Positions 9,287 to 11,445 of a DNA stretch of 64,000 nt are shown here, one piece after another. A program made the translations under genes and the position numbers. Positions within the stretch are counted from its first letter, which is position 1; each line of letters begins with the position of its first letter. The DNA comes from Thermonema rossianum DSM 10300 (lineage in GTDB: Bacteria; Bacteroidota; Bacteroidia; Cytophagales; Thermonemataceae): the NCBI RefSeq assembly GCF_000426825.1, contig NZ_AUGC01000001.1, forward strand, positions 372,001-436,000, in the 5' to 3' direction. A model generated the notes under the pieces. It searched no databases. It was not told the DNA's origin and saw nothing but the letters and a program-made list of their open reading frames with translations.

Positions 9287-10042
9287 ATGGCACTATTTCA
9301 AAGCCTTGACGATATATGTACTAAGGTGCTGTTTTTTGACATAGAAACAGCACCTGCTTTTCCTTCTTTCGATGCTATGCCGCCGGCTTTGCAGGACCAA
9401 TGGCGGCGGCAGACAGATAAAATAAATCGCTACGAAGACAGCGGGATGTCGCCCGAGGAGCTGTATCCTCTCAAAGCCGGCATTTATGCGGAGTTTGCCC
9501 GTGTAGTATGTGTGAGCTTCGGTCTGCTCGGAAAAAAGGAAGGGCAGTATTTCTTCCGTTTGAAGTCTTGCTGTGGCGAAGACGAAAGCCGTTTGCTGCA
9601 GGAGTTTGCTAAAATCCTTGATAATCAGTCTATAAAATACCTTTGTGCTCATAACGGACGGGAGTTTGACGTACCCTTCCTGGCACGCCGTTACCTGATT
9701 CAATCACTGCCGGTGCCGGAGATGATAGACTTACGCATGAAAAAGCCATGGGACGACGAAGCCAAGCGTATCATCGACACCATGGAGCTGTGGAGCTTTG
9801 GTGACAGGAAGAACTTCACCCGTCTGGAGCTGCTTTGTGCCGTCTTCGATATTCCTTCGCCCAAGTCTGATATCGATGGCAGCAAAGTAGGGGAGGTGTT
9901 TTGGAAAAACCGGGACTTTGAGCGCATTGCCCGCTATTGCGAAAACGATGTGCTGGCAACCGCCCGCCTTTATTTAAAATACATGCGCTTGCCCTCTATC
10001 ACCGACGAACAAGTAGAATATGCAGACCGGATTATGGTTTAA
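9287..10042 (+). CDS. Predicted 3'-5' exonuclease (PolB-like DEDD fold)
   Basis: A 251-residue protein resembling the proofreading exonuclease domain of family-B DNA polymerases (DNA_pol_B_exo2 type). The acidic metal-binding motifs are visible: FFDIETA near residue 19 (Exo I), CAHNGREFDVPFLARRY (Exo II), and YCENDVLATARLYLKY near the C-terminus (Exo III, YxxxD type). No polymerase domain is attached, so it is a stand-alone nuclease probably acting on single-stranded DNA or RNA ends. It overlaps the next gene by 23 bases if that gene starts at its first ATG. Confidence 0.85.
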   Translation: MALFQSLDDICTKVLFFDIETAPAFPSFDAMPPALQDQWRRQTDKINRYEDSGMSPEELYPLKAGIYAEFARVVCVSFGLLGKKEGQYFFRLKSCCGEDESRLLQEFAKILDNQSIKYLCAHNGREFDVPFLARRYLIQSLPVPEMIDLRMKKPWDDEAKRIIDTMELWSFGDRKNFTRLELLCAVFDIPSPKSDIDGSKVGEVFWKNRDFERIARYCENDVLATARLYLKYMRLPSITDEQVEYADRIMV

Positions 10043-11009
10043 TACGCAAACAAAGGAGAGCAAGGTGGAACTTAGCCGTTTGATTCAATACTTGCGTACC
10101 GAAGGCATAAGAACCTTCTATTATGGTCCTTTTACCTATAATGTCATCAATGAGTTGGGGTATCATATCAAACAGTACCTCGATAACTCAAAGAGTGTGC
10201 GTGACAAGGTGTTTTATGCTTTCGTGGAGCTGTGCGAAAACATAGGCAGCTATGCGGTGACCTATGAAGTCGTAGGTAATAAACGTGTGGGTACCGGACT
10301 GGTGGCGCTTGGCGAAGACCCAAACAACTATTGTATTCAGGCAATCAACTATGCTACGCCGCAGCAGCAAAAGGAGCTGCAACAGCGCCTGGCGCAGGTC
10401 AAAAACATGAGCCGCCGCGAACTGCGCGCCTATAAAAACGAACTGCGCCAGCAGGCCATTCAAAACCATCATCCCTCGGGCAATATAGGATTGATAGAAA
10501 TCCTTTTGCGCCTCGATAAAAAAGTGGATTTTCAATGGATAGATGCCGGCGAAAATCTTGTTCTATTCATAGTGAAAGCGTATATTGATAAAAAAGAAGA
10601 CAGTGGTCCTAAAATGGATGATTTGGTTGTCAAAGGTGAGAAAGGTACTTACTTAACACCGGATGTTTACTTTTCGGCACAGACCGGTGTGTGCGAAATC
10701 AAAGGCGAGTCTTACCAGGAAGATACCTTTGAGTTTTACAATACGCTTATCAACTGGATCGATACTTATATCCACGAAGTAAAAAAGCCGATTACGTTTA
10801 ACTTGAAGCTTACCTATTTCAATACTTCCTCTTCGCGTGCTTTGCAGGAAATCTTTCTTTTATTGAAAGAATATCAAGAGCAAGGGGGCGAAGTGACCAT
10901 CAACTGGTATTATCTCTTACATGACGAAAGCATGCTGGAGGAAGCAGAAGACTTCCAATTGAGTACCGGTATGAAGTTTAATATTATTTCCGTAGAAAAA
11001 TTTGATTGA
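10020..11009 (+). CDS. SiaB-like kinase fused to SiaC-like phosphoprotein
   Basis: A 329-residue protein with two recognisable parts. Residues 1-190 resemble the SiaB/DUF6272 kinase family, a GHKL-type ATPase fold: FVELCENIGSYA (about 68-79) is N-box-like and GNIGLIEILLR (about 154-164) matches the glycine-rich block. Residues 202-329 are a DUF1987/SiaC domain (LTPDVYFSAQTGVCEIKGES, then FYNTLINWIDTY and LKLTYFNTSSSRAL). In Pseudomonas, SiaB phosphorylates SiaC on Thr68; Thr269 here falls at domain position 67-68 in the FNTSS motif, so it is the likely phosphosite (inference). Start uncertain: a GTG at 10065 is preceded by AAAGGAG and would avoid overlapping the upstream gene. Confidence 0.75.
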   Translation: MQTGLWFNTQTKESKVELSRLIQYLRTEGIRTFYYGPFTYNVINELGYHIKQYLDNSKSVRDKVFYAFVELCENIGSYAVTYEVVGNKRVGTGLVALGEDPNNYCIQAINYATPQQQKELQQRLAQVKNMSRRELRAYKNELRQQAIQNHHPSGNIGLIEILLRLDKKVDFQWIDAGENLVLFIVKAYIDKKEDSGPKMDDLVVKGEKGTYLTPDVYFSAQTGVCEIKGESYQEDTFEFYNTLINWIDTYIHEVKKPITFNLKLTYFNTSSSRALQEIFLLLKEYQEQGGEVTINWYYLLHDESMLEEAEDFQLSTGMKFNIISVEKFD

Positions 11010-11146: not shown

Positions 11147-11229
11147 GGGGAGATACCGAAGCGGTCAAACGGGGCAGACTGTAAATCTGCTGGCTTATGC
11201 CTTCGTAGGTTCGAATCCTGCTCTCCCCA
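11147..11229 (+). tRNA. tRNA-Tyr (GTA)
   Basis: 83 nucleotides with a long variable arm, as expected for a class II tyrosine tRNA. The acceptor arms GGGGAGA and TCTCCCC pair fully, discriminator A at 11229. The anticodon loop contains GTA (CTGTAAA), and the T-loop is GGTTCGAATCC. CCA is not encoded. Confidence 0.95.
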
Positions 11230-11239
11230 CTATTTTGAA

Positions 11240-11312
11240 GCGAGAGTAGCTCAGTTGGTAGAGCGTCAGCCTTCCAAGCTGAATGTCGCGGGTTCGAGTC
11301 CCGTCTCTCGCT
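11240..11312 (+). tRNA. tRNA-Gly (TCC)
   Basis: 73 nucleotides; acceptor GCGAGAG pairs with CTCTCGC, discriminator T. Anticodon loop CTTCCAA gives TCC, reading GGA/GGG. T-arm GGGTTCGAGTCCC. Eleven bases after tRNA-Tyr. Confidence 0.95.
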
Positions 11313-11337
11313 CTTTCTTGTGAATCATTTCGTAAAG

Positions 11338-11408
11338 CCGATGTAGCTCAGGGGTAGAGCGCTTCCTTGGTAAGGAAGAGGTCACGGGTTCAAATCCCGT
11401 CATTGGCT
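11338..11408 (+). tRNA. tRNA-Thr (GGT)
   Basis: Acceptor GCCGATG pairs with CATTGGC (one G-U pair), discriminator T. Anticodon loop TTGGTAA gives GGT, reading ACC/ACU. The Tyr-Gly-Thr-tuf order is the same as upstream of tufB in E. coli. Confidence 0.95.
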
Positions 11409-11445
11409 CTATTTTAATTTTATATCGCAAAAGCATACGGACGAC

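Follow-up and report, generated by a model that had tools for sequence, protein, structure and literature searches.

A SiaB-type kinase domain and a SiaC-type substrate domain are encoded as one 329-residue protein in Thermonema rossianum, and siaB-siaC joins of this kind have arisen more than once from neighbouring genes. We give a probability of about 0.5 to the view that, taken as a whole, the protein works as a tethered partner switch, in which a kinase is held to its own substrate. The gene lies in a 64,000-nucleotide stretch of a single contig, hereafter the window, as one open frame of 329 codons and a stop (Table 1). Genomes are designated by G numbers, with G000 the window's own, and loci by L numbers; f and g denote families and genera. 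Family f1 comprises the eight genomes G000-G007, and G000 and G001 form genus g1.

Table 1. The fused gene, its parts and upstream neighbour (window positions), and stalk genes beside other siaB-siaC pairs (locus positions).
Feature	Coordinates	Strand	Basis or remark
Upstream 3'-5' exonuclease-like gene (PF10108)	9287..10042	+	Pfam for the window copy; other genomes by BLAST clustering
Fused siaB-siaC gene	10020..11009	+	329 aa, ATG start; fused orthologues in G001 and G002
SiaB-family (DUF6272) kinase domain, ~residues 26-190, SpoIIAB/RsbW-like fold	10095..10589	+	Profile and structure matches
Glu70 codon	10227..10229	+	Putative counterpart of SiaB Glu61; E in 101/101 SiaB domains
Glu73 codon	10236..10238	+	Gln in 96/101 SiaB domains
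Linker, residues 191-201, last kinase strand to first SiaC strand	10590..10622	+	Model secondary structure, alignment
SiaC (PF09345) domain, ~residues 199-326	10614..10997	+	Profile, PDB-sequence and structure matches
Internal ATG, Met199	10614..10616	+	Position where the family's separate siaC genes start
Thr269 codon, predicted phosphosite	10824..10826	+	Opposite SiaC Thr68; T or S in 111/111 SiaC domains
Stalk-gene examples	L105:728-1531, L100:1755-2726, L116:1884-3056, L103:407-1516, L092:2484-3542		Directly 3' of siaB-siaC
Further stalk-gene examples	L114:1849-2892, L120:3569-4609, L097:1865-2908, L082:4272-4781		Directly 3' of siaB-siaC

The two-domain architecture is supported by profiles, sequences and structures. 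In the fused protein, DUF6272 (PF19788) matches residues 56-183 (78.4 bits, E = 5.3e-22; Pfam cut-off 26.6) and SiaC (PF09345) matches residues 209-324 (137.3 bits, E = 2.6e-40; cut-off 24.5), and the N-terminal half exceeds the cut-off of the NCBIfam model SiaB_fam_kinase (NF038262; 106.4 bits against 85). An initial annotation, made from the letters of the window, had proposed these two parts in this order, and its reading of the N-terminal half is borne out by significant matches. Scores fall below the cut-offs of the equivalog models kinase_SiaB (NF038264; 54.1 bits against 225) and SiaC (NF038265; 95.6 against 150). The nearest solved structures by sequence, SiaC 6k4f/6kko and SiaB 6kko_A, are all from P. 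aeruginosa (E = 1.1e-18 for 6k4f and 5.4e-8 for 6kko_A). A predicted model of the fused protein has a pLDDT of 91 and a pTM of 0.66, which leaves the placement of the domains relative to each other unfixed. Its residues 198-326 superpose on P. aeruginosa SiaC (Z ~20.5) and residues ~26-193 on SpoIIAB/RsbW-type anti-sigma kinases (Z ~10-12); Foldseek with the model also retrieves SiaB 6kko_A (target TM 0.73). A Pfam scan of the protein returned SiaB and SiaC domains only, with no phosphatase domain.

The fusion is no artefact, because two further assemblies carry the unbroken frame and the linker is under constraint. The congener G001 has a frame of identical length (329 aa, 84% identity), and the fusion is also present in G002, which belongs to a different genus of the same family (48% identity over residues 32-327). 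Between G000 and G001, linker residues 188-208 show a pN of 0.057 against a pS of 0.667, and the SiaC half has a dN of 0.029 with saturated synonymous sites. These observations rule out an assembly or sequencing error that merged two genes, a frameshift artefact that the initial annotation had allowed for and whose probability is now close to nil.

Fusions extend beyond this family. Among the matches listed, at least eight fused siaB-siaC genes in three families were confirmed by reading: those of G000, G001 and G002 (f1), of G027, G042 and G465 plus a different one in G500 (f21), and of G450 (f15). The surveys drew on overlapping sets of 59 relatives, 395 phylum genomes, 390 order genomes, and 10 f21 with 15 f15 genomes; at most five candidates were scored in nearly all genomes of the phylum and order surveys, and the relative, order and f15 surveys rest on the matches listed, so fusions may be missed. 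Several genes that seemed fused in the searches (G392, G326, G557, G462, G503, G467, G052:C14 and G003:C215) are separate on reading. In the best tree, built from 73 pairs with L112 (a doubled SiaB) and L106 (SpoIIE-SiaB) left out, the fusions need five changes, three of which are forced by well-supported branches. One origin for all fusions is rejected (p-AU 9e-268, a figure not to be taken literally given several long branches), and G500 and G450 sit on long branches that make their exact placement unsure. SiaB is also found joined to other parts, as SpoIIE-SiaB (G214), response regulator-SpoIIE-SiaB (G353) and SiaB-SiaB (G103); loci with such joins are L106:1880-3367 (SpoIIE-SiaB), L123:2692-4437 (response regulator-SpoIIE-SiaB) and L124:4708-5811 (doubled SiaB).

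Within family f1 the same locus occurs in fused and unfused form. An exonuclease homologue precedes siaB-siaC in all eight genomes, and in the window it overlaps the fusion by 23 bases (10020-10042), as had been read from the sequence at the outset. Three genomes are fused (G000, G001 and G002) and the remaining five (G003-G007) keep separate genes. In G004, G006 and G007, siaB and siaC share a frame, and only a stop codon plus one or two further codons lie between them; in G005 they are 16 bases apart in different frames, and in G003 244 bases apart. In the simplest account of the window's gene, siaB and siaC would have lain side by side behind the exonuclease gene and the stop codon dividing them would have been lost; an older fusion may instead have split later. 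A single fusion shared by G002 and G000/G001 is neither shown nor rejected (p-AU 0.418). The exonuclease is, by position only, a candidate target of the SiaC domain. By eye, a purB-like gene lies with the exonuclease upstream of the fusion, and downstream tRNA-Tyr, -Gly and -Thr genes (11147-11409) are followed by a gene for EF-Tu.

Residues central to the known reaction are largely in place. In P. aeruginosa, SiaB phosphorylates SiaC at Thr68 and SiaA takes the phosphate off again, and a figure legend in the same paper gives SiaB Glu61 as the predicted catalytic residue (PMC7647112). The threonine of the phosphosite is retained in the window protein, as the initial annotation had suspected: Thr269, within YFNTSS, pairs with Thr68 when residues 208-321 are aligned, which takes no gaps (the SiaC PDB chain numbers run 1-2 above the published ones, a difference attributed to tag residues), and it falls in the N-T-S motif of the SiaC family. 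Glu70 is taken as the counterpart of Glu61, with a chain numbering offset of one assumed. Together with N74, N110 and G157 it is invariant across all 101 SiaB kinase domains compared, so that the N-box Glu and Asn are both present in the window protein. Two other positions depart from the consensus: residue 73 is E where 96/101 kinase domains have Q, and residue 109 is I where 82/101 have G. These counts come from 101 kinase and 111 SiaC domains of the collected loci that are above a length limit, with identical sequences taken once, and they are not independent since the sequences are related to each other; an earlier conservation table held 6 fused and 67 separate pairs, leaving out G465 and G500. 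Given E73 and I109 at conserved positions, activity of the kinase half is not to be assumed, and we regard it as plausible yet uncertain.

The other parts that a switch would need may be encoded elsewhere in the genome. With the fusion counted in, there are 6 SiaC and 5 SiaB domains, and the four other DUF6272 genes could serve the same SiaC domain, which counts against the tethered switch. SpoIIE-type domains number 19, none of them near the fusion (C1:382020); the sole one on its contig is at 58716, more than 300 kb off. A search for a SiaA-like phosphatase, suggested at the outset, thus found many candidates in the genome and none beside the gene. Another siaB-siaC pair is preceded by a SpoIIE protein of 1221 aa with dCache-like, HAMP, GAF and PAS parts.

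From these features we envisage the following working cycle. The SpoIIAB-fold SiaB domain would hold the SiaC domain and, with ATP, phosphorylate Thr269 either in cis or, across chains, in trans; this phosphorylation would be undone by SpoIIE-type phosphatases from other loci; and the unphosphorylated SiaC domain would then dock on a target that is neither a diguanylate cyclase nor a recognisable SiaD-type stalk protein. P. aeruginosa SiaB is reported to form a tight complex with unphosphorylated SiaC, of suggested 2:2 stoichiometry, and phosphorylation then frees SiaC (PMC7647112). A tether amounts to a high local concentration, so the SiaC domain should be readily captured and phosphorylated, and a stronger phosphatase signal would then be needed before it binds its target. 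The idea of a self-contained switch, put forward in the initial annotation, fits as far as kinase and substrate share one chain, and overreaches in that the protein lacks a phosphatase domain, no SpoIIE gene is nearby and an internal start codon at Met199 is kept, as described below.

Output from this switch would differ from that in P. aeruginosa. There are no GGDEF matches in the window's genome, which is 97.5% complete, so the output is not SiaD-like, in line with the first suggestion of some other partner. SiaC activates SiaD through two motifs on a helical stalk, where Thr68 contacts Ser82 and Gln86 (PMC8457831). An N-terminal helical module of ~65 residues is common to the genes directly 3' of some siaB-siaC pairs, and a profile of this module searched against the PDB has SiaD as its top match (E = 1.7e-4 over the whole sequence, against 0.024 for the next match). 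Both SiaD stretches matched are individually weak and coincide with the motifs ISDGFQ and ISDRYQ; in the module, the motif reads around ITKVSDxxQxKL, and its Asp and Gln are invariant in 24/24 rows. Among the collected loci, a SiaD-like stalk gene directly follows 28 of 97 distinct siaB-siaC pairs, which is no estimate for the phylum, as the profile was iterated from the same loci and these were picked by likeness to the query. Pfam domains on the scanned stalk proteins are GGDEF, Guanylate_cyc (class III cyclase), HisKA-HATPase or SpoIIE; other scanned stalk proteins have no Pfam domain of known kind and appear by eye to be coiled-coil or membrane proteins. The stalk module may well serve SiaC proteins generally as a docking site.

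The window's genome appears to lie outside this pattern. In the family, all five genomes with separate genes encode a stalk protein (E = 2.4e-17 to 4.2e-16), within ~1.5 kb of a siaB-siaC pair in G003 only, whereas the three fused genomes yielded none, with best E values of 0.285 (G000), 0.699 (G001) and 0.108 (G002), at which a more divergent stalk could be missed; the contrast is drawn from a small sample, in which G003 is only 81% complete. The best match in G000 spans positions 5-38 of the profile, which do not include the docking motif. Nor is fusion always paired with a missing stalk: a stalk gene comes immediately after each of the three orthologous f21 fusions, and after neither the G450 nor the G500 fusion. 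Glu308 of the window SiaC domain corresponds to P. aeruginosa Leu107, a stalk contact, and Glu at this position is seen in 0/30 stalk-linked against 38/81 other SiaC domains. The lack of a detected stalk in the fused family genomes, together with Glu308, suggests that the SiaC target in the window's genome differs in kind from SiaD-type stalk proteins.

Two alternatives to the tethered switch concern what the fusion contributes. The kinase half might be a degenerate scaffold that holds SiaC and no longer phosphorylates it, this task having passed to other SiaB proteins of the genome. The unusual E73 beside N74, the I109 and the four further DUF6272 genes fit such a scaffold, as does the quicker divergence seen for the kinase half within g1, where its dN of 0.128 between G000 and G001 is 4.4 times that of the SiaC half, a point against the tethered switch as well. 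A paper title in the reference list of PMC9138534, which speaks of lost kinase activity in multidomain Rv1364c, points the same way. For separate genes of genus g4, the kinase/SiaC dN ratio is 2.1 to 3.2, and in the f21 fusion (G042/G027) the order is reversed, with 0.053 for the kinase and 0.090 for SiaC. Against a scaffold stand the intact E70, N74, N110 and G157, the purifying selection on the kinase half (dN/dS ~0.10, G000/G001) and the occurrence of the same departures in separate genes (E73, which G001 also has, in the separate SiaB of G003; at residue 109, L in the separate SiaB of G004, G006 and G007 and I in that of G005), and we consider it unlikely. Alternatively, the stop codon may have been lost neutrally, leaving a fusion that works just like two separate proteins. 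Separate genes at the same place in sister genomes, some in the same frame and only a few bases apart, would make such a loss easy to picture, and one origin within the family is indistinguishable from two. Its retention across (near-)saturated synonymous divergence in both g1 and f21, and its presence in several lineages, argue otherwise, and we regard neutral loss as rather unlikely.

A further alternative arises from the start codon of the former siaC gene. Of the fused genes, 7/8 still have an in-frame ATG exactly where the start codon of a separate siaC gene would lie; these are not seven independent cases, as G000/G001 and two of the three f21 genes are close kin. In the three f21 genes it is kept while the preceding linkers differ strongly, and the G500 gene has Thr in place of this Met, so that the fold there does not need the Met. 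The kept ATG suggests internal initiation that yields free SiaC, in which case the substrate half may not always be tethered. Ribosomes would then also start at Met199, and the fused copy would be a kinase with a built-in competitor while free SiaC carries the signal. Of all 20-site stretches of the gene, the one richest in codons identical between G000 and G001 (18 of 20 sites, codons 165-192, window positions 10512-10595) lies just upstream of the ATG, and 175 of 5000 shuffles match it; for stretches of 12, 16 and 25 sites, 1981, 259 and 936 of 5000 shuffles do so. As proof of an internal start this synonymous constraint was rejected, being too weak a signal over four stretch lengths and absent in the f21 fusion. 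Weighed with the close kinship among the ATG-bearing genes and the missing Met in one of the eight, these points leave a two-product gene possible yet doubtful. Should free SiaC be produced as well, it would face competition from the fused copy for both kinase and target. We advance, as a somewhat unlikely synthesis, that one gene gives a tethered kinase-substrate that determines at what threshold switching occurs, together with a free SiaC that carries the signal, an arrangement reached more than once by gene joining.

Partner switches rely on a substrate leaving its kinase, and a covalent tether is a test of how far this departure is needed. The same locus, fused and unfused within one family, offers a natural comparison. 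In addition, the stalk survey suggests a role for SiaC where SiaD is absent, and opens the targets of many SiaC proteins to direct tests.

Three known arrangements resemble the window protein in different ways. Like the exonuclease-siaB-siaC genes of G003-G007, it occupies the same locus in the same order; unlike them, it has no stop codon between the parts, which in those genomes keeps the proteins separate. It shares with P. aeruginosa SiaABCD the SiaB kinase fold with its N-box Glu, the SiaC fold and the phosphosite Thr, and differs in having one chain rather than two, no GGDEF protein in its genome, no phosphatase gene nearby and scores below both equivalog cut-offs. In working, though with no relationship implied, it resembles Rv1364c of M. 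tuberculosis, described as a single chain with a kinase domain and a STAS substrate domain together with PAS and PP2C domains that regulates a sigma factor (PMC9138534); the PAS and PP2C domains are absent from the window protein. Among the open-licence PMC papers retrieved, titles and abstract openings name neither a SiaB-SiaC fusion nor SiaC stalks with other outputs. A kinase and a STAS-fold substrate on one chain are already known from Rv1364c, and the SiaB-SiaC version would be a new form of that arrangement.
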